DNA from: Methanolobus tindarius DSM 2278
Lineage (GTDB): Archaea; Halobacteriota; Methanosarcinia; Methanosarcinales; Methanosarcinaceae
Direction of reading: 5' to 3'
Length of the DNA: 64,000 bases
NCBI RefSeq assembly: GCF_000504205.1
Contig: NZ_AZAJ01000001.1
Coordinates: 656,879 to 720,878 of the forward strand
The position numbers were made by a program, and so were the translations under genes. The notes under the pieces were generated by a model, which was given only the letters and a program-made list of their open reading frames with translations, had not been told where the DNA came from and did no database searches. Shown one piece after another: positions 423 through 38,113 of this stretch (position 1 is the stretch's first letter; every line of letters starts with the position of its first letter).

Positions 423-1121
423 TTATTCCTTGCCAAGCCTTACAAGCAGAGGGTCTTTGACACCTGCAGCTTCAAAAGCTCTTCTTCTACGGGTACAACT
501 TTCACACTCTCCACAGGGAACATCAGCACCATGATAGCAGCTCCAGCTATACTCCAGAGGAGCTTTTAGCTCAATGGCCCTGGCAACTATCTCTTTTTTG
601 TTCATTCCAATAAGTGGTGCAAGCACTTTAACATCATTCTGAGTGGAATATGAAAGTGAATCATCAATTGCAGAGATAAATTCCGGGGAATTATCAGGGA
701 ATGTGACAGCTTCCTCTTTATTAAAGCCTACAACAACATGCTCACAGTCCATGCTTTCAGCATATGCTGCTGCTATGTTTATGAGAATACCGTTTCTGTT
801 TGGAACCCAGACAGCTTTGGCAGATTCAACTGTTATGGAAGGGTCAGCTTCATCGGATATTTCTTCCATACTGAGTTTTGGAACATCAGTATTTGTGTTC
901 ACAAGTGAAGTGTTGGTAATCTCCTGCATCCAGGTAATATCGAGAACACGATAATCCAGTCCAAAATGTTCACATACTTTAATGGAATTCTGTATCTCAC
1001 GATCAACAGCACGCTGCCCGTAATTGAAAATAAGAGCCATTTTTATATCGGTCTTTTCAAGGACTGCCGCAACGGAAGTCACTGAATCAAGACCGCTACT
1101 TAACAAAGCAATTGCAGTAAT
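423..1121 (-). CDS. queC: 7-cyano-7-deazaguanine (preQ0) synthase QueC
   Basis: ATP-dependent ligase that turns 7-carboxy-7-deazaguanine and ammonia into preQ0, the base later inserted into tRNA and converted to archaeosine. The PP-loop signature LLSSGLDS sits at the N-terminus, and four zinc-ligand cysteines lie near the C-terminus ([18 protein letters not shown]). Length is about 232 residues, normal for the family. Start: no ATG or GTG fits. An in-frame stop lies just upstream of the ribosome site, and the first usual start codon (TTG at 1106) would cut into the P-loop strand and lies 22 bases from it. A strong AAGGAGG (1129-1135) is 7 bases upstream of an ATT at 1121, giving (M)[12 protein letters not shown], which matches the family N-terminus. 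I therefore infer an ATT start. Confidence 0.9.
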
Positions 1122-25301: not shown

Positions 25302-25630
25302 ATCCCGGTTTAAAATCTGTTTTCAGATAGCAATGGATAGCGCAGCTGGTCGATACAGCATATTGCAACTAATATATAATGAGAAATATTATATACTACT
25401 CTCTATATAGTTAAATTGCATAATTTGCACAGGCTTTATTTTTTAGCCTGAACCTGTATAGAATATGTAATTGTGGAAGCGACTTTAAAAAGGAAAAGTT
25501 CAAACGAACAATAAATTAATATAATATATTATCCCCTATATAATAACGTAGAAATACAATCCATATTCTACTAAATATAGTGCAAATACTGCACATATTA
25601 TGCAATACCAAACATGGGAGATATGAACAA
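25302..25630. other. Intergenic region upstream of the chemotaxis operon
   Basis: About 330 bases, very AT-rich, no gene seen. It holds a possible terminator for the upstream gene (CAGGCT / AGCCTG, 25430-25450, enclosing a T-rich loop), TGCA-rich inverted elements (25416-25430 and 25580-25605) and a TATA box (25537-25543). Confidence 0.5.
25537..25543 (+). promoter_or_regulatory. Putative TATA box of the chemotaxis operon
   Basis: TATATAA within CCCCTATATAATAACG. Transcription would start near 25568, giving a leader of about 60 bases before cheY. Assigned by pattern and distance only; the surrounding AT-richness makes false matches easy. Confidence 0.35.
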
Positions 25631-25987
25631 ATGGTAAAAGTAATGATTGTGGATGATGCTGCCTTCATGCGCATGGTCATCAAAGACATATTAACAAAAA
25701 ATGGTCATGAAGTAGTTGCCGAATGTGTTGATGGACTTGATGCTGTGAACAAATATCCAGAGGTAAAGCCTGAGCTCGTTTTCATGGATATTGTCATGCC
25801 AAACATGGAAGGAATAGACGCGCTCAAAAAGATAATGGAAATGGACCCGGCTGCAAAAGTAGTTATGTGTTCATCCATCGGACAGCAATCTGTTGTCACA
25901 GATGCGCTTAAAACCGGTGCCCTTGACTTTATAGTCAAGCCATTTGATGCAGCAAAAGTTCTCGAAGTAATTGGAAAAGTAATCTAA
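25631..25987 (+). CDS. cheY: Chemotaxis response regulator CheY
   Basis: Single receiver domain, 118 residues. It receives phosphate from CheA and signals to the motility motor (in archaea through adaptor CheF, not seen here). Acidic pocket VDDA at 8-10, phospho-acceptor Asp53 in FMDIVMP, switch Ser/Thr region MCSSIGQ and KPFD lysine near 100. The ATG at 25631 is chosen because family proteins start at VKVMIVDDA; an upstream in-frame ATG adds 17 residues with no homology. First gene of the operon, 1 base before cheB. Confidence 0.93.
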   Translation: MVKVMIVDDAAFMRMVIKDILTKNGHEVVAECVDGLDAVNKYPEVKPELVFMDIVMPNMEGIDALKKIMEMDPAAKVVMCSSIGQQSVVTDALKTGALDFIVKPFDAAKVLEVIGKVI

Positions 25988-25988
25988 T

Positions 25989-27092
25989 ATGACTATCAAT
26001 GCACTTGTGGTCGATGACTCCGCGCTCATGCGAAAGGTCATCTCGGATATCCTGAAAGAAGACCCGGAATTAAACGTAATAGCTACGGCCAGAAACGGTC
26101 TTGAAGCTGTTGAAAAGGTCGAACAGTTCAGGCCGGACGTGGTGACTTTGGATATTGAGATGCCTGTACTTGACGGATTGCACGCTCTGGGATATATCAT
26201 GAGCGAATGCCCAACTCCAGTAGTCATGTTAACGGCGGTCGACTCCAGGTCTGCGGAAAGTACACTGAATGCATTTGAATACGGAGCAGTAGACTTTATA
26301 CAAAAACCTTCAGGAAACATAAGTGTTAACATTGCGGATATAGCCGATGAGATCCGCAAAAAAGTAAAGATGGCTTCTAAAGTGGATCTGAAAAAACTCG
26401 GATTCATGGAAGAACACGTAAAAATATCTCGTGAAAATAAAGGTAAACCTTTGCCACCTAAACCAAAGAAAAGTAATTCAAAAATCGTGCACCATGCAAA
26501 CGGAAAAATAATCGCCATTGCATCTTCCACAGGCGGACCCCGTGCCCTGGAACAAGTAGTTCCTAAATTACCGGGCAACCTGAAAGTGCCTGTAGTAATT
26601 GTCCAGCACATGCCTGCAGGATTTACAGCATCCCTGGCACAAAGGCTGGATGGACAGTCTGCACTGACTGTTACCGAAGCCAAAGAAGGAGATGTTCTCC
26701 AACCGGGACATGCCTATCTTGCACCGGGAAATTACCACATGGAGATTGCATCTGTTGAGAAGGGTGGAATTCACCATGAAGTTGTTAAACTCAACCAGAA
26801 ACCCCGTGAGCAAGGAGTAAGACCCTGCGCAAATATTCTCTTCAAATCACTTGTGCCTATCTATGGATCTAATATAGTGTCGGCAGTTCTGACAGGAATG
26901 GGAGCAGATGGTGCTGATGGTGTGGAAGACATAAAAAAAGCAGGTGGTAAAGCAATCGCTGAGGATGAAAGGTCATGTGTGGTATATGGTATGCCAAAAG
27001 CAGTTGTCCAGAGAGGACTTGCTGATAGTATTGTACCTCTTGAAAGGATATCTTCGGAGATAGTACGAATGCTGAACTCATCCGGTGATTAA
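25989..27092 (+). CDS. cheB: Chemotaxis protein-glutamate methylesterase CheB
   Basis: Two-domain adaptation enzyme, 367 residues: receiver domain (acceptor Asp55 in TLDIEMP) and C-terminal methylesterase/deamidase that removes methyl groups from receptor glutamates. Catalytic triad candidates are Ser in IASSTGGPRALE (about 179), His in VQHMPAGF (about 206) and Asp in LTGMGADGADGV (about 306). Full length. Its ATG follows the cheY stop by one base. Confidence 0.95.
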   Translation: MTINALVVDDSALMRKVISDILKEDPELNVIATARNGLEAVEKVEQFRPDVVTLDIEMPVLDGLHALGYIMSECPTPVVMLTAVDSRSAESTLNAFEYGAVDFIQKPSGNISVNIADIADEIRKKVKMASKVDLKKLGFMEEHVKISRENKGKPLPPKPKKSNSKIVHHANGKIIAIASSTGGPRALEQVVPKLPGNLKVPVVIVQHMPAGFTASLAQRLDGQSALTVTEAKEGDVLQPGHAYLAPGNYHMEIASVEKGGIHHEVVKLNQKPREQGVRPCANILFKSLVPIYGSNIVSAVLTGMGADGADGVEDIKKAGGKAIAEDERSCVVYGMPKAVVQRGLADSIVPLERISSEIVRMLNSSGD

Positions 27093-27143
27093 AATGTGTA
27101 TGAAAAGTGAGAAGGTCATTATTTTCTCAGGGTTGGTGTGACC

Positions 27144-29219
27144 ATGGATATGTCAGAATACAAAGAAATATTTAGAGCAGAATCGGAAGAGCATCTGCAA
27201 CAACTTAACGATTCATTACTGGGGCTTGAACAAAACCCCAATGAACTGGAATATATCAATACCATGTTCCGATCAGCACATACCCTGAAGGGAATGTCTG
27301 CTACAATGGGTTTTAACACAATTTCAGAACTGACCCATGAAATGGAAAACCTGATGGACATGGTTAGGAAATCACAGGTAGAAGTGAGCAACGGATTAAT
27401 AGACATTCTTTTTGAATGCCTGGACACACTGGAAGCACTTGTTGAAGCTGTTGACAGTGGAGAAGAAGTAGATATTGCTCATCTTCAGGCAACCCTTGCA
27501 CAGGCAATGGAAGGAACCATGCCAGTACAGGAGATAAAGGGTTCTGTAACTGCAAGTATTGATACCATTCAAAATGAAATAGGTAAAGAAATTCCAGAGC
27601 AAAACGCAGAAAACGATACCGAAACTGAAGCAAAGGTTGAGGTTGCCCCTGTTGTTGATAATATTGAATTATCAGATAACGAAAAGCAAGCTATCGAGGA
27701 AGCTGTAAGTGAAGGCAACCGTGTGGTTTCACTGAAAGTTCTTCTTGATGAATCATGCGTCCTGAAATCTGCCAGATCAACTCTGGTACTCATCAATGTA
27801 TCCAAAATGGGAGAAATAATAAGATGTGTCCCCACAGAAGCAGAACTTGAAGATGAGAAATTTGATTTAGACTTCACAGTAATTTTCGCAACTAAATCAT
27901 CTGATGATGACATAGTTGGAACTATTAAGAAGATTTCAGAGATAAAGGATGTAGTTCCTACAACCATCGCTGAAAGTTCAAAAGTTGAAGAAAAGCAGCA
28001 GGAAAAAAAGAAAGAAGAAACAGAAGAAAAGAAAAGTGCTTCTGCTGTTAAAAGGTCTGATGCTGTCAAGAGTATACAGAGTGTAAGAGTAAATATAGAG
28101 CGTCTTGACAACCTGATGAACCTTGTTGGGGAACTGATTATCAACAAAATAAGGCTAAACCAGCTTGCATCTGATCTTAATGCAAAAGATCTGGACGAAT
28201 CTCTTGCAAATCTTGACAGGCTGACTAATGAGATCCAGACTGAAGTTATGGAATCCAGGATGGTTCCTATTGACCAGATTTTCAGCAGATTCCCAAGAAT
28301 GGTAAGAGACCTTGCCAAGTCTGAAGGAAAACAAATCAACCTGATTATTGAAGGTAAAGAAATCGAGCTGGACAGGACCGTACTGGACGAGATTGGCGAC
28401 CCATTGGTTCACCTTCTAAGAAATGCTGTGGATCATGGAATTGAATCCGAAGAAGAGCGTAAGCAACTTGGAAAACCTGTTGCGGGTCTTGTAAGACTGG
28501 CAGCTTCACGTCAGAGAAACAGTGTGCTCATTGAAGTAGAAGACGATGGTAAGGGAATGGACCCCGGACATCTGAGAGACATAGCTGTTAAAAAGGGAGT
28601 TCTGACCAGAGAAGAAGTTGACAAATTATCAGACACCGATGCGCTGAATCTCATATTTATGCCTGGTTTTAGCGGAGCAAAGGTTGTTACCGATATCTCT
28701 GGAAGAGGTGTTGGAATGGACGCTGTCAAGACAAAGATTGAAGCTCTTGGCGGAAGTGTCAAAATCAGCTCTGTTCCGGGCCAGGGTAGCATAATGAAGC
28801 TGCAGCTACCACTTACAGTTGCAATCATTCAGTCACTCATGGTTACTGTAGCCGGGGAAACATACGCCATTCCTCTTGGTAATGTTATCCGTGATGTTGG
28901 AATCAAATCCAGTGACATTAAAACCATCGAAGGAAAAGAAGTCATCATGCTCAGGGGAGAAGTACTTCCGTTACTTAGATTGCATGATGTACTCGAATGT
29001 CCCACCGAAGCAGAAGACAAGCAGAACCTAATCGTTGTGGTTGTCGAAAAGATGGGAAGCAACATCGGACTTGTCGTTGATGACCTCCTTGGACAGCAAG
29101 AAGTAATCATCAAAACTCTTGATAATAAACTTTTGAAAAATATGAAAGGATTTGCAGGCGCGACTATCCTCGGAGATGGAAGTGTTTCACTGATCCTTGA
29201 TATTGCTACATTGATCTAA
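27144..29219 (+). CDS. cheA: Chemotaxis histidine kinase CheA
   Basis: Central kinase, 691 residues. Order: P1 phosphotransfer with His46 (RSAHTLKGM), a divergent P2 region followed by an acidic/Lys linker (about 270-295), P3 dimerisation (IQSVRVNIERLDNLMNLVGELI), P4 ATPase (N box LLRNAVDHGIESEEER, G1 VEDDGKGMD, G2 GRGVGMDAVK) and P5 CheW-like domain (IIQSLMVTVAGETYAIPLGNV) at the end. I chose the ATG at 27144, with GGTG 5 bases upstream, over a GTG at 27138. CheY and CheB, encoded upstream, are its phosphate targets. Confidence 0.95.
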   Translation: MDMSEYKEIFRAESEEHLQQLNDSLLGLEQNPNELEYINTMFRSAHTLKGMSATMGFNTISELTHEMENLMDMVRKSQVEVSNGLIDILFECLDTLEALVEAVDSGEEVDIAHLQATLAQAMEGTMPVQEIKGSVTASIDTIQNEIGKEIPEQNAENDTETEAKVEVAPVVDNIELSDNEKQAIEEAVSEGNRVVSLKVLLDESCVLKSARSTLVLINVSKMGEIIRCVPTEAELEDEKFDLDFTVIFATKSSDDDIVGTIKKISEIKDVVPTTIAESSKVEEKQQEKKKEETEEKKSASAVKRSDAVKSIQSVRVNIERLDNLMNLVGELIINKIRLNQLASDLNAKDLDESLANLDRLTNEIQTEVMESRMVPIDQIFSRFPRMVRDLAKSEGKQINLIIEGKEIELDRTVLDEIGDPLVHLLRNAVDHGIESEEERKQLGKPVAGLVRLAASRQRNSVLIEVEDDGKGMDPGHLRDIAVKKGVLTREEVDKLSDTDALNLIFMPGFSGAKVVTDISGRGVGMDAVKTKIEALGGSVKISSVPGQGSIMKLQLPLTVAIIQSLMVTVAGETYAIPLGNVIRDVGIKSSDIKTIEGKEVIMLRGEVLPLLRLHDVLECPTEAEDKQNLIVVVVEKMGSNIGLVVDDLLGQQEVIIKTLDNKLLKNMKGFAGATILGDGSVSLILDIATLI

Positions 29220-29234
29220 AGATGAGGGAATAAT

Positions 29235-29852
29235 ATGGCAGAAATGGACGAAATGGCAAGAGGAGCATTTCAAGAGGCCGGAAACATTGGAATGGGACAT
29301 CTGGCCACTTCACTTTCAAAAATGGTGAACAGGGATGTGAAAATCGATATCCCTGTGGTAGAAATGCTGACTCTGGATGAAATAATCGAAAAAAGCAATG
29401 AAGAAGGCAAGAACAAGAGCGTGGTTGGAATACACCTTCACATAACAGGTGATGTCTCAGGAGGAACCCTCATACTACTCCCTAAGTTCTCAGCACTATC
29501 ATTTTCAGATCTGTTGATGAAAAAGTCAATTGGAACTACAAATAAAATTGAAGAGCAACAGGTTAAGAAACTTCGTGAAATGGGAGTGAACCTCTGCAGT
29601 GCTTATATGCGTGTTGTCAATGAATTCCTGGGAATACACCTTAACATTGGAGACCCCAGCATGGAAGTCAACATGGAAGGTGTTGGAGATTTCATCAAAC
29701 AGGAAATCGGACAGGTTGCAGACCAGTTCATTGTTGTGAAAGGTGAATGTCTGATACCTTCTACAAACTCCAGGAATGAATTCAATATGCTTTTTGAACC
29801 CGGTGCCACGGACATAATAATGGCAGCTATAATGAAGAAAATGATGGGATAA
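29235..29852 (+). CDS. cheC: CheC-family protein 1 (second phosphatase motif degenerate)
   Basis: 205 residues with the CheC/CheX/FliY fold; CheC dephosphorylates CheY-P and partners with CheD. The first ExxN motif is intact (Glu14, Asn17 in QEAGNIGMGHLATSLSKM). The second site reads LREMGVNL, so Glu115 remains but the Asn position is Val118. One active centre is therefore expected at most. ATG with GAGGGA upstream; one base before the actin-like gene. Confidence 0.88.
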   Translation: MAEMDEMARGAFQEAGNIGMGHLATSLSKMVNRDVKIDIPVVEMLTLDEIIEKSNEEGKNKSVVGIHLHITGDVSGGTLILLPKFSALSFSDLLMKKSIGTTNKIEEQQVKKLREMGVNLCSAYMRVVNEFLGIHLNIGDPSMEVNMEGVGDFIKQEIGQVADQFIVVKGECLIPSTNSRNEFNMLFEPGATDIIMAAIMKKMMG

Positions 29853-29853
29853 A

Positions 29854-31974
29854 ATGAACAGTGCCCATTTTGCCCTGGATATAGGAACAAGAACTGTTGT
29901 GGGACTTGTTACAGAAGATGGGAACCTCAACATAAAAGCTGCGTGTGTTCACGAACATAACGAGCGCAGCATGCAGGATGGGCAAATTCATGATGTCGAA
30001 AAGGTTGCAAAGGTTGTTGACGAGGTCAGAGATGATCTTGAAAAAGAAACCGGATGCAAATTGTCAAAAGTTGCCGTAGCCGTTGCAGGAAGGGCACTTA
30101 AGACATCCAAAGTAAAAGTTTCAGTGGAGATGCCTTACAGGGAAATAAGTCGTGAGGATATCTCCGAACTGGAATTTGAGGCAGTTGCACGCGCCGGAAA
30201 CCAACTTGGAAACGATAAAGGATTTAATTGCGTAGGTTACTCCGTAGTTCACTATGAACTTGACGGGGAACGCATTTCCAATATTATCGGACAGAAGGGA
30301 AGTTCTGTCACAGTGGAAGTGCTTGCTACTTTTTTACCGGAAGCTGTTATCAGCAGTATGTTTGCCGTACTTGACAGGTGCGGACTTGAAGCATCAAGTG
30401 TTACTCTTGAACCCATAGCAGCCCTGAATGTTGCTATTCCTTCTGATATGCGAAAACTCAATATTGCACTTGTAGATATCGGAGCAGGAACATCCGATAT
30501 TGCAATTACAGATAATGGAACCGTAATCGGATATGGAATGGTCCCGGAAGCAGGAGATGAAATTACTGATTTTATATGCGATTACTATCTTGTGGATTTC
30601 AAGAAGGGAGAAAATATCAAAAGGTCCCTTACAAGCAAGGATAAAATCGAGCTTGAAGATATTTTTGGTGTCATCACTGAAGTTCCGGTAAGTCAGGTAA
30701 TTTCTGATATTGAGCATGAAGTAGAAAAGCTTGCAATGCACATTGCCGAAGAAATACTTACAATAAATGAGAAAGTTCCACGAGCAGTAGCCCTTGTTGG
30801 TGGTGGGTCACAGACCGCAGGCCTTAGAGAACATCTATCAAAACATCTTGATATTCCTGTGCAGAGAATTGGCTCACGTCTTCCTAAACAAATAGAAGGC
30901 CTGGCTGACAACACAGGAATTGTTACCGGTGCGGACATGATAACACCACTTGGAATAGCCCGGATGGCAATTCTTGATGAAGGAATTGAATTCATCGACC
31001 TGACTGTAAACGGTCTTGAAATCCACCTGATGGACATAAATGGACTATCTGTTATGGACGCACTTGTAGCTGCAAAAGTAAAACGCCTTTATCCACGCCC
31101 CGGGATGGGGCTTAGTCTTACTGTCAATTCTGAACTCAGAACAATTGAGGGCGATACGGGCGAACATGCCACCATATTACATAATGGAAAAAAAGCAAGT
31201 CTTGGAGACCCTGTACACAAGGGTTCTGTCATTGATTTCACAGCACCAGTGGATGGAAAAGATGCAAAGCTGAAGGTCAGAGATCTCATAAAGATGCAGG
31301 GACTGAAGGTTGCATTCAATATCAACGTCAATTATAACGAAATCGAAATCGGGCCTTTTGTTACAATTAATGGAAAAAAGGCATCCTTTGAAGAAACAAT
31401 ACCTGACAGGGCTGATATTAAAATACGTGCACCAAACCTGGAAGATGTTCTTGAAATGGAATTCGGACAGGATGAACTTGAAAAGATATCAGTTGTTATC
31501 AATAATACTGTTCAGTATTTTGACAGGATAAATTACACATTCAAGCTAAACGGGAATTCTGTTGACAGAGATAAACTTTCACAACACCCTGTCAATGATA
31601 ATGATATAATTCTAATTGATAAATCAAAGTTTGACTACAGGATCGAGAATATCCTGAGTAAACCTGAAGAAAGCAAAAAGATCAGCGTACTTCTCAATGG
31701 CAATGAGATTGTATTTGATGGCTCTATGCCGCAAATTACCCTTAATGGAAAAAGGGCTTCTCTTTCTGACAAAATAGATGATGGAGATAATATCAAACTG
31801 AAACTGGGGGATGATGCGGATCCGATACTTTCGGACCTGTTTGAATTTATGGATATTAAAAAGGAGGAACTTGTTGGCAAAAGAATGAGACTTCTTGTAA
31901 ACAACGTTCCTGCCAGATTTACAACCCCTTTGAGGGATGGAAACAATGTGACAATAGAATTTGCAGAGGTATAA
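29854..31974 (+). CDS. FtsA/PilM-like actin-fold ATPase with beta-grasp-like repeat tail
   Basis: 706-residue protein inside the chemotaxis operon. Residues 1-380 have actin/FtsA-type nucleotide motifs: phosphate-1 ALDIGTRT (7-14), phosphate-2 VDIGAGTSD (207-215) and adenosine motif LVGGGSQTAG (314-323). The region about 80-190 resembles the SHS2/1C insertion of FtsA and PilM. Residues 380-706 hold repeated units of the form NGKxAS...I.DGD.I, at 444-450, 506-512, 566-572, 615-621, 631-637 and 683-689, like ubiquitin/ThiS-type beta-grasp modules. There is no amphipathic FtsA tail. I recall long FtsA-like proteins with such tails in Firmicutes. The role here is unknown; a cytoskeletal scaffold for the signalling array or transfer from bacteria are inferences. 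Confidence 0.8.
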   Translation: MNSAHFALDIGTRTVVGLVTEDGNLNIKAACVHEHNERSMQDGQIHDVEKVAKVVDEVRDDLEKETGCKLSKVAVAVAGRALKTSKVKVSVEMPYREISREDISELEFEAVARAGNQLGNDKGFNCVGYSVVHYELDGERISNIIGQKGSSVTVEVLATFLPEAVISSMFAVLDRCGLEASSVTLEPIAALNVAIPSDMRKLNIALVDIGAGTSDIAITDNGTVIGYGMVPEAGDEITDFICDYYLVDFKKGENIKRSLTSKDKIELEDIFGVITEVPVSQVISDIEHEVEKLAMHIAEEILTINEKVPRAVALVGGGSQTAGLREHLSKHLDIPVQRIGSRLPKQIEGLADNTGIVTGADMITPLGIARMAILDEGIEFIDLTVNGLEIHLMDINGLSVMDALVAAKVKRLYPRPGMGLSLTVNSELRTIEGDTGEHATILHNGKKASLGDPVHKGSVIDFTAPVDGKDAKLKVRDLIKMQGLKVAFNINVNYNEIEIGPFVTINGKKASFEETIPDRADIKIRAPNLEDVLEMEFGQDELEKISVVINNTVQYFDRINYTFKLNGNSVDRDKLSQHPVNDNDIILIDKSKFDYRIENILSKPEESKKISVLLNGNEIVFDGSMPQITLNGKRASLSDKIDDGDNIKLKLGDDADPILSDLFEFMDIKKEELVGKRMRLLVNNVPARFTTPLRDGNNVTIEFAEV

Positions 31975-31977
31975 AAA

Positions 31978-32802
31978 ATGCTTAAAACCGTTGGGAAAAC
32001 TGAAGACGAGTATTATGAAATACTGAAAAACCTAATCCAGAAAAATCTTGGATTCAATTCAAACCAGTACAAGGATTCTCACTTCAAAAGAAGAATCGAT
32101 GTCAGGTTGCGTGCAACAAATACAAAGACTTACAAAGAATATGTAGAACTGCTGCAAAGTGACAAGAATGAATATCCTGAACTTATGGAAACTCTGACAG
32201 TAAATGTTACAAATTTCTTCAGGAACCCTGAAGTATACGATATCGTAGAAAAAGAAGTACTGCCGGCAATAATCAAATCAAAGACAGGTGGCCTTCGTTC
32301 AATCAGGATCTGGAGTGCAGGATGCTCAATCGGAGTAGAAGCATATTCCCTGGCAATGTTATTTAATCATATACTCGGAAAGGATTTTAGTAAATATAAC
32401 ATCAAAATAACTGGAACTGATATCGATAAGGAAAGTCTTCTGAAAGCCCAGAATGGAATATACTCTGCTGCAGAGATGAAGGATGTCAGACCTGCTTTTC
32501 TTAAGAAGTACTTCACCAAGGACGGAGATAAGTACATAATTTCAGATGAGCTCAAAAAGATTACTCAATTCAAAAAACAGGACCTAATATCAGGACCGAA
32601 AATGAGCGGTTTTGATGCCGTATTCTGCAGAAACGTTACAATTTATTTCCAGAAAGAGTTGCAAGAACAACTCTACATGGACTTTTACAGTGCCCTTGGA
32701 AACGGAGGGTTCTTTGTGATGGGTAAAACCGAGACACTGATAGGACCATCAAAAGACAAATTCAAATCATACAATTCTAAAGAGAGAATCTACCAGAAAT
32801 GA
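31978..32802 (+). CDS. cheR: Chemotaxis receptor methyltransferase CheR
   Basis: SAM-dependent methylation of receptor glutamates, opposing CheB. 274 residues: helical N-terminal domain (KDSHFKRRIDVRLRATNTKTYKEY) and Rossmann domain with motif IRIWSAGCSIGVEAYSLAM, the acidic ITGTDIDKESL strand and the active-site loop FCRNVTIYF (usually CRNVxIYF). Full length. ATG with GAGGT 7 bases upstream, 3 bases after the actin-like gene. Confidence 0.94.
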   Translation: MLKTVGKTEDEYYEILKNLIQKNLGFNSNQYKDSHFKRRIDVRLRATNTKTYKEYVELLQSDKNEYPELMETLTVNVTNFFRNPEVYDIVEKEVLPAIIKSKTGGLRSIRIWSAGCSIGVEAYSLAMLFNHILGKDFSKYNIKITGTDIDKESLLKAQNGIYSAAEMKDVRPAFLKKYFTKDGDKYIISDELKKITQFKKQDLISGPKMSGFDAVFCRNVTIYFQKELQEQLYMDFYSALGNGGFFVMGKTETLIGPSKDKFKSYNSKERIYQK

Positions 32803-32852: not shown

Positions 32853-33467
32853 ATGAAGCATAAGATATCAAGCCTGAGCGAGTTGCAGGTAAGTGCCTTA
32901 AGGGAAATAGTGAACATCGGTGTTGGAAATGCTGTAACATCGCTTTCCAAAATGATAGAAACCGGAGTAAAAATAGAGGTTCCTGATTTTAAAGTAGAAC
33001 TTATCGAAGATGTTCCTGAGGTTCTGGGAGGAGCTGCTAACGTTGTATCAGGCGTGATAATGCATGTAAATGGTGATATCGAAGGGTACATCATGATGAT
33101 GCTTCCTGAAGAAGCAGCCCAGACAATTTGTGAGATAATCACTCATGAAGAAAATACAGATATTCTTACACCCCTTAACCAATCACTCCTCGAAGAGGTT
33201 GGTCATATTCTTGCAGGATCTTATGTTAGCTCCCTGTCTGATTTTCTGGGCCTGAACATCAGAATTTCTACGCCTATGCAGACTTTTGACATGCTGGGAG
33301 CCATAATAGACCAGATACTGATAGAGATGAGTCAGAAAGTAGAGCATGCGCTTCTTTTTGACACTATGTTTATAATCCAGGGAAACAGAACCGATGGTTT
33401 TTTCCTTACAATGTTTGACCCTGACTCCATGGACACAATAATAGACCGTATTGAAAAGATGATCTGA
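32853..33467 (+). CDS. cheC: CheC-family protein 2 (Asn to His in second motif)
   Basis: 204 residues, CheC fold. First site intact: Glu18 and Asn21 (REIVNIGVGNAVTSLSKM). In the second site the motif LEEVGHILAGSYVSSLSDFL keeps Glu115 but has His118 where Asn is expected. The C-terminal segment has LLFDTMFIIQGN, as in other paralogues. GGAG lies 7 bases before the ATG. Next gene follows 14 bases later. Confidence 0.87.
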   Translation: MKHKISSLSELQVSALREIVNIGVGNAVTSLSKMIETGVKIEVPDFKVELIEDVPEVLGGAANVVSGVIMHVNGDIEGYIMMMLPEEAAQTICEIITHEENTDILTPLNQSLLEEVGHILAGSYVSSLSDFLGLNIRISTPMQTFDMLGAIIDQILIEMSQKVEHALLFDTMFIIQGNRTDGFFLTMFDPDSMDTIIDRIEKMI

Positions 33468-33481
33468 CAGGAGAGAAATGA

Positions 33482-34090
33482 ATGAATATAGTACTTGATA
33501 AGTTCTATTACGATGCATTAAATGAAGTGGGAAATATTGGAATGGGAAATGCAACAACTGCACTCTCACAGCTTGTGGGCAAGTCCATTAATGTCAGTGG
33601 CTCGTCCCTAACGTTGCTTAAAGCTAAAGATATTTCAGAAAGTCTTAACTCTGAGAAGATAGGAGCCATAGTTAGAGTTATGGGAGATATGAATGGTGGA
33701 TTCATACTGATACTTAGTAAAAACCATTCAGAGGTTCTTGCTGATATGCTTCTGAAGGATAGTGCCGAAGACAGTTATATGAAAGTCTCGGCATTTATTG
33801 AAGTTGCAAATATTCTTGCAGGCAGCTATTATAACGCTCTCTCCAAATTCCTGAACCTTTCTATCATACCTTCAATCCCCACTATATCCGAGGGGACTAC
33901 CGATGAGATATTCGAAAAAGCAAAAAAGCATATGAGTGGAAAAATCGACCACATATTTGGCCTGACAACTTTGTTTGAGATTACAGGTGAAGATGAATAT
34001 CACAGCCTTAGCGGTGATATGTATATGCTTCTGGATACGGCATCTTTGCAATCGGTAATCGACAGGATAGAAGAAATGCGTACGAGATAA
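33482..34090 (+). CDS. cheC: CheC-family protein 3 (both phosphatase motifs intact)
   Basis: 202 residues. Both CheC active-site helices are complete: Glu15/Asn18 (NEVGNIGMGNATTALSQL) and Glu107/Asn110 (IEVANILAGSYYNALSKFL), with Pro after the second helix. This makes it the best candidate in the cluster for the main CheY-P phosphatase and the CheD partner; cheD follows 2 bases later. Confidence 0.9.
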   Translation: MNIVLDKFYYDALNEVGNIGMGNATTALSQLVGKSINVSGSSLTLLKAKDISESLNSEKIGAIVRVMGDMNGGFILILSKNHSEVLADMLLKDSAEDSYMKVSAFIEVANILAGSYYNALSKFLNLSIIPSIPTISEGTTDEIFEKAKKHMSGKIDHIFGLTTLFEITGEDEYHSLSGDMYMLLDTASLQSVIDRIEEMRTR

Positions 34091-34092
34091 AC

Positions 34093-34566
34093 ATGATAAT
34101 AGTGGGAATGGCTGACAGTGCTGTTGCGAAAAAACCCGCAAAACTCACCACTTTAGGGCTTGGGTCTTGCGTGGGTATTTCCCTCTATGACAAAAGCACG
34201 GGTGTTGGCGGTATGGTGCATATTATGCTTCCCAGCATAGAAAATGCAAGATCAAAAGACAATATCGACAAATTTGCAGATACAGGCATCCCTGCACTTA
34301 TTGATACAATGGTAGAAGAGGGTGCGTACAAACACCGTACTACTGCAAAAATTGCTGGTGGTGCAAGCATGTTCTCATTTAATTCAAAGACCCAGCTCAA
34401 TATAGGAGAAAGAAACGTGGCGGCTACGAAAGATGCATTAAAGCTACTCAAAATACCCATTGTTGCTGAGGATACTGGAAAGAACTACGGACGTACCATT
34501 GTGCTTGACACTGAAAACGGAGAACTTACTGTCAAAAGCGCACTGAAAGGTATAAAAGTATATTAA
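34093..34566 (+). CDS. cheD: Chemoreceptor glutamine deamidase CheD
   Basis: 157 residues. Deamidates receptor glutamines and modulates CheC. Catalytic Cys26 (LGLGSCVGISLYD), His43 (GGMVHIMLP) and the GGASMF segment are present. Follows an intact CheC, the usual partner. No strong ribosome site, consistent with coupling to the gene 2 bases upstream. Confidence 0.94.
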   Translation: MIIVGMADSAVAKKPAKLTTLGLGSCVGISLYDKSTGVGGMVHIMLPSIENARSKDNIDKFADTGIPALIDTMVEEGAYKHRTTAKIAGGASMFSFNSKTQLNIGERNVAATKDALKLLKIPIVAEDTGKNYGRTIVLDTENGELTVKSALKGIKVY

Positions 34567-34617: not shown

Positions 34618-35649
34618 ATGTTAACTCCGGAAATTACTATAACACACATATTTTTCATATCCATATCGTTAGCGTGTGGATTAGCAGCGATCTACTTCTG
34701 GGTAAAAGTATATTTTGAGACAAAAAAAGGATCTATTGCCTGGTTACTTCTCGCACTTACAGCTATATTCCTTATCACATCCTCCATATTCCCATCCATT
34801 GCTATTAGTGTTCAGGATGAAGATATTACTGAGTTGATTTTCCTGTTCCTTGGTTTCTGGAGTGCTGTTTACACCAGTGTATTTGCAGCTGCCGGATTTT
34901 TGATGCTTCAGGCATTTACTACAATCCCAAGGGAAAAGCTTGGAGATTTCCTGATAGAAGGAATGATATTCACAAAACCTGTTGAATCAGAAGATGATAT
35001 GGAAGAGCTGCCTCAGGTAGAACAGATGGCTAAACTTCTTAGCAGGTCAACACTTATTGAATATACACCAAAAACCCGATATGAGGATTCAGTAATAGAA
35101 ATATGTCTCCGTCTTTACGGGGAAATGGTGAACACAGTTCTTGTATCTACACAACCCCGTACTGAAATGTACAAAGAGAAAATAGGGGATCTAATGGATA
35201 TAGGTGCAATGAAGTTTATTGAAATATCATCCACAAGCAAGCATGTCACCAATAAGGATGGAATTGTAAAGTTACCCGCAGATGAAATAGAGAAGTTCTT
35301 TGAACTTACAAGCAAGCTTCCTGAAGGCTGTGCTGTTATATTTGAGCCTATGAGCCAGTTGATTTTCACAGATGGTGAACAGAGAACCTATGAGTTCATA
35401 TCTGAAATGGTAGAGCGTTTCTCTGCCAGTAACCTGATTCTGGTAGGTCTGATAAATAAAGATGCTCATGACACTAAAACCGTGTCAAGATTTGAGGGTC
35501 TCTTCCTGAACCTTGCAGAAGAGAAAGATGCAAAGATACGTGTTGTAAAAGGCGGAAGAGAGGAATACATCAGGTTCTATGTAGGAGAGAAATTCTTCAT
35601 GGAGCAGGATGTTGAAGTTATATTAGAGGAAAAAAAGGTTGAATTCTAA
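34618..35649 (+). CDS. Membrane-anchored DUF835 protein
   Basis: 343 residues. Three membrane helices at the N-terminus (about 7-32, 41-64, 70-100) are followed by a cytosolic DUF835 domain (from about 140, LLSRSTLIEYTPKTRYEDSVIEIC, through VKLPADEIEKFFELTSKLPEGCAVIFEPMSQLIF, to the end). The same domain ends the receiver-PAS-PAS protein at 7.4-9.0 kb. Function unknown; its place between cheD and a CheC suggests a membrane component of the signalling system. GGTGA 6 bases before the ATG. Its stop overlaps the next start (TAATG). Confidence 0.82.
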   Translation: MLTPEITITHIFFISISLACGLAAIYFWVKVYFETKKGSIAWLLLALTAIFLITSSIFPSIAISVQDEDITELIFLFLGFWSAVYTSVFAAAGFLMLQAFTTIPREKLGDFLIEGMIFTKPVESEDDMEELPQVEQMAKLLSRSTLIEYTPKTRYEDSVIEICLRLYGEMVNTVLVSTQPRTEMYKEKIGDLMDIGAMKFIEISSTSKHVTNKDGIVKLPADEIEKFFELTSKLPEGCAVIFEPMSQLIFTDGEQRTYEFISEMVERFSASNLILVGLINKDAHDTKTVSRFEGLFLNLAEEKDAKIRVVKGGREEYIRFYVGEKFFMEQDVEVILEEKKVEF

Positions 35650-36275
35650 TGAGCAGACAGCTTGACAATTTTCTGATTGATGCATTCAAAGAGATAGGTA
35701 GTATCGGCATGGGAAATGCTACTACTTCCCTGTCCAAACTTATTGAAAAAAGAGTGCAGTTAAATCTTTCAGATGCACGTTTGTTTGAGCCATCTGCAAT
35801 TGTAGACATGATACCGGACTCCATCACAATGACCAGTATCATGATGCCGGTTCACGGTGACCTCAATGGCGTTGCAATGATGTTGTTCGAGTTTGGCAAT
35901 GCGGTTTATCTTAGTAATTTACTGTTACAGAGTATTGAACACGATGATGACCCGAGTATCTATGAGTCTGCACTTCTTGAAACTGGAAATATTATTGCAG
36001 GCTCATACCTGAATTCACTTGCATCTTTCCTTGATCTTAAAATAATGCATTCAGTGCCGGACATCAGTATCGGTACAATTGATGAAATCCTGGAAAGAGG
36101 ACTTGCCAAAATGCAAAAAGAACCAGAAGGAATTCTGAACATTGAAACTATGTTTATGGTCTATTCTTCTGAGAAGGATGTAGGTGCAGGTACCATTTAT
36201 GGTGATATGTTCCTTCTTCTTGACAGTGAATCTTTAGACAGAATGCAAAATTCAATTCAGGAAATGCTGAAGTGA
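35649..36275 (+). CDS. cheC: CheC-family protein 4 (Asn to Ser in first motif)
   Basis: 208 residues, CheC fold. The first site reads KEIGSIGMGNATTSLSKL, with Glu15 but Ser18 in place of Asn. The second site is intact: Glu111/Asn114 (LETGNIIAGSYLNSLASFL). This is the reverse of paralogues 1 and 2. The start overlaps the DUF835 gene stop, so these two are translationally coupled. Confidence 0.88.
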   Translation: MSRQLDNFLIDAFKEIGSIGMGNATTSLSKLIEKRVQLNLSDARLFEPSAIVDMIPDSITMTSIMMPVHGDLNGVAMMLFEFGNAVYLSNLLLQSIEHDDDPSIYESALLETGNIIAGSYLNSLASFLDLKIMHSVPDISIGTIDEILERGLAKMQKEPEGILNIETMFMVYSSEKDVGAGTIYGDMFLLLDSESLDRMQNSIQEMLK

Positions 36276-36870: not shown

Positions 36871-37497
36871 ATGATGGACATTGCAATTTACTCGCTTGTT
36901 GATGATATGGTCAGCAAAGCAGGAACAGAAGGTGTCGTAGAATACTGGCTTCGTGTAGGTGAGAGCTATGCAGAAAGGATGGGCAAGGAAGCATACGTAG
37001 GATGGCCTGCCTTTAATGTGGCAATGAAAGATGGAAGGACATCTCTCACTGTAGAAGGTGATGTTAATGTCCAGACAGATCTTGCTATCACAGATAAGGA
37101 CGGAGATGTTATCGGCTATGTCTATGCTTTAAAGACATGCCCGATAGCACCTACTATGGCCAGATTCATTTCAAGAATCGGCCCGATACCAGATTCAGAT
37201 ACCGATGTGGCTGACAGCTACAATAACCGTGTAAGAGACTCAGCTGTTTCTAATTACTGCATTACCCACCAGAAGTTCAGGGAGGTTGCGGCTAACAATA
37301 TTACTGTTGCTAAACAGGCTCTTGAATGTCTGCACCTTGCAAACAAAGGAATGACCGGTGAAGTTAAAATGGTACAGGAAAACCTTTCCAGGATAAATGT
37401 TGACGAGAGGCACATAAAGAGTATTCTCCGCAGCGCATCCTGTGTTTTCGCTCTTATTGTAAAAGGAAAGAGTGCAGGCGAGGAGATTATAGATTAA
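36871..37497 (+). CDS. Unrecognised Cys/His protein, tandem paralogue A
   Basis: 208 residues, soluble, no family recognised with confidence. Shares with its downstream neighbour a conserved core: Cys-Pro (Cys90), the run FISRIG, then Cys130 with His133 (YCITHQKFRE) and a late SC pair (RSASCVFALIV). Regularly spaced Cys and His suggest a metal or cofactor site. It could be distantly related to V4R or aminothiazoline-carboxylate hydrolase-like folds; I cannot confirm either. Strong ribosome site AAAGGAGACC. Confidence 0.6.
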   Translation: MMDIAIYSLVDDMVSKAGTEGVVEYWLRVGESYAERMGKEAYVGWPAFNVAMKDGRTSLTVEGDVNVQTDLAITDKDGDVIGYVYALKTCPIAPTMARFISRIGPIPDSDTDVADSYNNRVRDSAVSNYCITHQKFREVAANNITVAKQALECLHLANKGMTGEVKMVQENLSRINVDERHIKSILRSASCVFALIVKGKSAGEEIID

Positions 37498-37507
37498 AGG
37501 TGATAGT

Positions 37508-38113
37508 ATGGCTGAAAATATAGAATCAAACCCTTTTGTTGATGTTTCAGTATTCCTGTTCTTTGAGGATATTTCCGATAAACAGGGTGTTGAAGGTTTT
37601 ACCAATTACATGGTCGGTCAGGCAGAATCACTGGCAAAATCAGTTCCTGAGGAAGAATATCGTACATGGGATGACTTTGCAAATGCGGTCATTAACGGAG
37701 AATCCGTGCTTTCATCATTTGAACACATCGGACAGATAAGCAAATTCGGTTTTGTCACAAAGGTATGCCCGTTCTCCAAGGCTATCAGGGAATACATTAA
37801 GAGAATTGGTAATTTCAACCCTGTTCATATGGAAGCAACTGATCATTTTAATCACACCATACAGCCTTCAGCTGCACACAGTGCATGTATGATGCACCAG
37901 ACTTACCGCAAGGAAGTTGCAAAGAGAATCAAGATTGACGGCAAACCACTTCAGTATGCCCAGATAGCAGCAAAGGCATATACAGGAAAGATTGCTCTTC
38001 CTCCGGAATCATGGAAAAAAGTCCTGCTGGAAAAAGCAGGAATTACTGAAACCCAGGGATTCATGGAAATGAGGGAGAACAGTTGTCTGTATCTTCTTTA
38101 TGTTGAAGAATAA
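37508..38113 (+). CDS. Unrecognised Cys/His protein, tandem paralogue B
   Basis: 201 residues. Aligns with paralogue A over most of its length: Cys87-Pro, YIKRIG, Cys127 and His130 (ACMMHQTYRKE) and terminal NSCLYLLYV. Begins 10 bases after A, so the two are co-transcribed and may form a heterodimer. Function unknown. A terminator hairpin follows 25 bases after the stop. Confidence 0.6.
   Translation: MAENIESNPFVDVSVFLFFEDISDKQGVEGFTNYMVGQAESLAKSVPEEEYRTWDDFANAVINGESVLSSFEHIGQISKFGFVTKVCPFSKAIREYIKRIGNFNPVHMEATDHFNHTIQPSAAHSACMMHQTYRKEVAKRIKIDGKPLQYAQIAAKAYTGKIALPPESWKKVLLEKAGITETQGFMEMRENSCLYLLYVEE

Follow-up and report, generated by a model that had tools for sequence, protein, structure and literature searches.

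We describe here FtsAL, an FtsA-like actin-fold protein with a beta-grasp tail, which is encoded in the chemotaxis operon of the archaeon Methanolobus tindarius and whose genetic linkage, conserved beyond chance, argues strongly that it is tied to the chemosensory pathway. Since the same gene occupies the same spot in the che operons of an unrelated bacterial group, the Omnitrophota, the protein probably belongs to a signalling system as a component not yet described. We put at roughly one in two the probability that FtsAL serves the pathway as a dedicated accessory component, namely an ATP-switched scaffold or adaptor. To our knowledge, no chemosensory system with an FtsA-type actin has been described; a literature search for an FtsA-like protein in chemotaxis found nothing relevant in the library searched, which is an absence there and not proof.

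The FtsAL gene and its operon

Within the window, that is, the whole stretch of 64,000 nucleotides that was analysed, FtsAL is a single open reading frame with an ATG start (Table 1), and the M. tindarius genome holds one copy of it. With its neighbours typed by Pfam, the operon reads cheY-cheB-cheA-cheC-FtsAL-cheR-cheC-cheC-cheD-orf343-cheC. The sequence-only reading had placed the gene between cheC and cheR, 1-3 bases from each, and took it to be expressed with the signalling proteins; spacers of 1 and 3 bases bear out both the place and the co-transcribed position. The four cheC genes in one operon represent an unusual redundancy of putative CheY-P phosphatases. The product of orf343 has N-terminal hydrophobic segments followed by a conserved soluble part, and its gene is retained in the che operon of related genomes. 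Directly past the operon, at 36871-38113 of the window, lie two adjoining open reading frames, each about 200 aa long, which show 86-93% conservation in Methanolobus and in a genome of a second genus (G003) and have no match in Pfam.

Table 1. Coordinates of FtsAL, its parts and the surrounding operon (nucleotide positions in the window; residue numbers in FtsAL)
Feature	Position	Strand	Basis or remark
cheY	25580..25987	+	Pfam
cheB	25989..27092	+	Pfam
cheA	27138..29219	+	Pfam: Hpt, P2, HATPase, CheW
cheC1	29235..29852	+	Pfam; 1 base upstream of FtsAL
FtsAL, FtsA-like actin-fold protein with beta-grasp tail	29854..31974	+	706 aa
Actin-fold ATPase part, residues 1-375, including FtsA-type 1C (SHS2-like) subdomain	29854..30978	+	TIGR01174 aligned 7-353
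Phosphate-1 motif, residues 7-14 (ALDIGTRT)	29872..29895	+	D9, G11, T12, R13 invariant, 77 sequences
Phosphate-2 motif, residues 207-216 (VDIGAGTSDI)	30472..30501	+	77-sequence alignment
Adenosine motif, residues 312-322 (VALVGGGSQTA)	30787..30819	+	77-sequence alignment
Tail, residues 376-706, five chained beta-grasp units	30979..31971	+	Predicted structure, HHalign, fold search
Tail hairpins	residues 380-393, 420-431, 488-499, 544-557, 610-621		
Tail helices	residues 400-406, 475-481, 529-537, 597-600, 659-665		
Tail NG-strands	residues 440-463, 502-525, 559-592, 627-650, 676-705		
cheR	31978..32802	+	Pfam; 3 bases downstream of FtsAL
cheC2	32853..33467	+	Pfam
cheC3	33482..34090	+	Pfam
cheD	34093..34566	+	Pfam
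orf343, conserved che-operon protein	34618..35649	+	No significant Pfam family
cheC4	35649..36275	+	Pfam

An FtsA-type ATPase part joined to a beta-grasp tail

The actin fold that had been proposed for the N-terminal part is confirmed. The Pfam families PilM_2, FtsA and MreB_Mbl all score above cut-off there; since FtsA and MreB_Mbl pass as well, the PilM_2 match (44.8 against a gathering score of 27) is to be read at the level of the superfamily only. AlphaFold2 predicts the whole protein, from a 77-sequence alignment, with a mean pLDDT of 90.7 and a pTM of 0.70, and the best solved relative of this model is FtsA (7q6f, E 5.5e-29, TM by target 0.74), followed by PilM (2ych, TM 0.77), EutJ and MreB. 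The nucleotide motifs first noticed at residues 7-14, 207-215 and 314-323 are in place, and D9, G11, T12, R13, D208, G210, A211, G212, T213, D215, G316 and G317 show no variation across the 77 sequences; on this alignment, the ATP site has all its nucleotide motifs intact.

The tail, modelled alone by AlphaFold at a pLDDT of 94.1, matches no solved structure by sequence and was placed by fold search only. Its repeats had been described as at least five copies of an NGKxAS...DGD pattern resembling beta-grasp modules. Five NGKxAS...GD-like units are indeed present, but their motifs vary (NGK, NGN and NNV; DGD, DRA, DND and DGN), so that the pattern as written is a loose consensus. Units that do not overlap match each other at HHalign probabilities of at least 98% (98.3-98.9% among U2-U5), whereas pairs that overlap carry no weight here. 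The beta-grasp assignment held: VIA-align ranks ThiS (1zud) best, aligning 65 residues within tail positions 114-220 at a Z of 9.6. Further matches are to SAMP1 and to TGS domains, at about 5-92, and, at 232-328, to a multi-ubiquitin protein from a bacterium. The Pfam ThiS model scores 19.4 at residues 659-701, below its cut-off of 22.5. The C-terminal Gly-Gly that marks ThiS and SAMP as sulfur carriers or modifiers is absent, FtsAL ending in ...VTIEFAEV. Along the tail, the elements run hairpin 1, helix 1, hairpin 2, NG-strands 1, helix 2, hairpin 3, NG-strands 2 and so on, and the ThiS-like matches span more residues than they align, by about the length of the hairpin or strands of a neighbouring unit. 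From this secondary structure and these aligned ranges, we read the tail as five interlocked beta-grasp domains, in which the hairpin of each unit n+1 is predicted to lie between the helix and the NG-strands of unit n.

Distribution and descent

FtsAL occurs in 25 Methanolobus genomes and in G003, and in all 26 (L001-L020, L024-L029) it is flanked by cheC1 and cheR, at a distance of 1-5 bases from the former, upstream, and of -14 to 3 from the latter, with identities of 54-100%. As anticipated, the gene is foreign to most archaea: a draw of 393 Halobacteriota genomes gave matches in 1 of 136 genera, and a loose cut-off gave them in 3 of 14 genera of Methanosarcinaceae, one of these being a weak match to another protein. 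A Methanolobus genome (G049) and four genomes of group g11 have cheA-cheC1-cheR with no gene separating cheC1 and cheR, in operons that are otherwise the same. G049 most likely lost FtsAL, because it is nested within Methanolobus in the CheA tree; G055 has neither CheA nor FtsAL. As sister archaeal genera run the same operon without it, FtsAL is not essential to the pathway. Where present, it is under purifying selection as judged by a dN/dS of about 0.06-0.11 against four relatives, the actin part being lower than the tail. The copy of G052 (L029:6768-7418) is shortened to 216 aa, with residues ~2-104 joined in frame to 599-706 between intact cheC and cheR, and reflects either a genuine deletion within the gene or an artefact of assembly.

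In a scan of named genomes, full-length homologues of 35-43% identity were mostly from Bacillota, together with two from Omnitrophota and one from Thermotogae. Among 384 Omnitrophota genomes, FtsAL is present in 21, and all 20 readable copies (L035 and L041 included) lie directly 3' of cheA or cheC. It accompanies CheA in 21 of 85 CheA-positive genomes versus none of 299 CheA-negative ones (Fisher p 2e-15, uncorrected for kinship). One Omnitrophota layout places a ComFB-family gene and then cheR after FtsAL (L035, L133, L143, L146, L148 and others). The chemotaxis context, which had been thought a new use in this archaeon, is thus a property of the clade, as the Omnitrophota gene already resides in che operons.

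The Bacillota relatives are found in other surroundings. These long, FtsA-like orphan proteins resemble FtsAL over their full length of about 700 aa (35-40% identity) and have the same tail, but differ from it in having no che operon. Copies in Bacillaceae are divergent from DAHP synthase and ccpA, those of syntrophomonads precede ctsR and a clpC-like gene, and those of Peptococcaceae are close to pfkA, with no che genes beside any of these. Among Firmicutes, only one class and Heliobacterium have a cheR close by. In that class (that of L044), FtsAL is present in 8 of 20 genomes, all CheA-positive, and all 7 loci that could be read on that side have a solitary cheR immediately upstream. At L215, L217, L219 and L220, which show this arrangement, no cheA lies within the stretch read, and in several loci the cheR closes a cluster with radical-SAM-like and hemL-like genes. 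Homologues without any che gene, which the sequence-only reading had named as grounds for refutation, therefore do make up most of the Firmicutes set but not the clade of archaea and Omnitrophota. Since most Firmicutes homologues are such orphans, the basic activity of the family need not be chemotaxis. Full-length homologues also occur on three human-gut contigs deposited as 'Bacteriophage sp.' (L021, L022 and L023; MT835753, MT835546 and MT835512), which are probably mislabelled chromosomal DNA.

In the FtsAL tree, the copies of archaea and those of Omnitrophota group together as a single clade (ultrafast bootstrap 100, SH-aLRT 99.7), which also appears in a quick 69-row tree with a support of 97; the che-linked subfamily is thus a single lineage across two domains of life. 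By these trees, the closest relatives of the archaeal copies are those of Omnitrophota and not of Firmicutes. The suggestion of a transfer from Firmicutes was right about full-length homologues there but not about the nearest relatives, and direct transfer from that group is weakly rejected (p-AU 0.039 for a clade of archaea and Firmicutes). The CheA tree is discordant with that of FtsAL, grouping the CheA of the window with those of FtsAL-free archaeal operons. Transfer of the whole che operon from Omnitrophota is unsupported, because CheA and CheC1 are as in FtsAL-free sister archaea (62-66% and about 71% identity) and CheA is nearer to that of Heliobacterium (50%) than to those of Omnitrophota (39%). 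The simplest account is a single-gene transfer into the equivalent place of an existing archaeal che operon, and the much wider bacterial spread of the gene suggests a direction from bacteria to archaea.

Possible roles in the chemosensory pathway

Chance placement is rejected, as 26 archaeal genomes and 20 loci of Omnitrophota keep the synteny. We envision FtsAL as a cytoplasmic protein whose actin part, as a monomer or short filament, would respond to ATP, with the beta-grasp chain as an arm that may dock Che proteins. CheC and CheR are the likeliest partners and first candidates, as theirs are the most frequent flanking genes. Docking could then position the signalling complex, or couple it to the machine that it controls; in Methanolobus this would be the archaellum, in Omnitrophota a type IV pilus. 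The pilus genes beside three Omnitrophota che operons and the complete archaellum of the host, both described below, count for this reading too. A bolder version, which we hold only tentatively, is that Omnitrophota and Methanolobus have in common an undescribed class of chemosensory system with its own actin-like, possibly filament-forming ATPase, which positions the array or couples it to type IV filament motors through the interlocked beta-grasp arm.

The foremost alternative is that FtsAL, like PilM, is an actin-fold adaptor of a type IV filament machine, regulated by the chemosensory core but standing outside it. FtsAL and PilM (TIGR01175/PF11104) are of the same fold class, with PilM_2 above its cut-off and PilM folds among the top matches of the fold search; three Omnitrophota che operons adjoin pilin, pilM, pilN, pilO or MshEN/PilZ genes, and the host has a complete archaellum. 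However, the NCBIfam PilM model reaches only 58.4 bits against a cut-off of 133, FtsAL comes without pilN/O/P partners (no pilN or pilO adjoins it in archaea), most Firmicutes copies have no recognised pilus genes alongside, and the Omnitrophota locus L146 encodes a separate PilM with no significant BLASTP similarity to FtsAL. We consider this alternative unlikely, though the strongest of those weighed here.

The archaellum motor of the host comprises an ArlC/D/E fusion, two archaellin-fold proteins, ArlH, ArlI and ArlJ. In the archaellum operon, ArlC and ArlD/E are fused into one 452-aa protein (L221:11576-12931), and the archaellins are encoded at 140-146 kb. Other archaea depend on CheF (PF04283), the archaeal adaptor from CheY to the archaellum, for the connection of CheY-P with the motor (PMC9126983, PMC6509185). 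Whole CheF was not found in Methanolobus, where only matches to its N-terminal domain were seen, among them a weak one in a 195-aa open reading frame by the archaellins. The archaellin cluster (L191, at 126-146 kb of G000) adjoins this protein, a KaiC-like ATPase and a V4R protein, and possibly constitutes a divergent switch module. FtsAL may be a counterpart of CheF in role, as a link from Che signalling to the motor, but CheF is a PH-domain protein of unrelated fold. A stand-in for CheF was dropped as an explanation: FtsAL-free sister genera that carry the operon likewise gave no CheF match above cut-off, and partial CheF-N-like proteins exist, so we make no claim that FtsAL replaces CheF.

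FtsA is the closest relative by fold and sequence family, with the actin fold, 1C subdomain, all nucleotide motifs and best PDB matches in common, which would suit a division or polarity protein of the FtsA line, one binding FtsZ and linking chemotaxis or motility with the cell cycle. Yet FtsAL scores 124.1 bits (E 6.7e-36) with the FtsA model TIGR01174 against an equivalog cut-off of 175.85, and where FtsA has an amphipathic membrane-targeting helix, FtsAL has its 331-residue tail, ending in a beta-strand (E698-705); by these two features it is not FtsA proper. The EPR..E helix, which we take to be part of the FtsZ site of FtsA, is not conserved in the alignment, and the gene is tied in position to che and not to division genes. 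Such a role is improbable. We think equally little of an ATP-driven assembly factor akin to Hsp70 or EutJ, whose beta tail would bind a client such as the Che array: the EutJ model does match at 1e-15, DnaK is among the weaker fold matches and the syntrophomonad copies neighbour ctsR and a clpC-like gene, but DnaK comes far behind FtsA and PilM, and the tail is a chain of beta-grasp units, not an Hsp70 substrate domain. A housekeeping actin-like protein of bacterial origin, whose place in the che operon serves convenient expression alone, would agree with the orphan Firmicutes contexts and the FtsAL-free sister operons, but has little to commend it against che linkage within one clade in two domains of life and strict co-occurrence with CheA in Omnitrophota.

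Among archaeal actin homologues, FtsAL may be compared with the haloarchaeal volactin, which forms dynamic filaments (PMC10869688), and salactin, which is dynamically unstable (PMC10746226); motility is reported to be unchanged in both mutants, and we know of no beta-grasp tail or che operon described for either protein. The placement and connection of archaeal chemosensory arrays and archaella is an open question, and a study in Haloferax concluded that an independent positioning machinery, left unidentified there, is likely needed (PMC6509185). An actin-fold ATPase in che operons of two domains is a concrete, testable candidate for such positioning. FtsAL would also open a first functional approach to its FtsA-like family, a large and uncharacterised one found widely across Bacillota.
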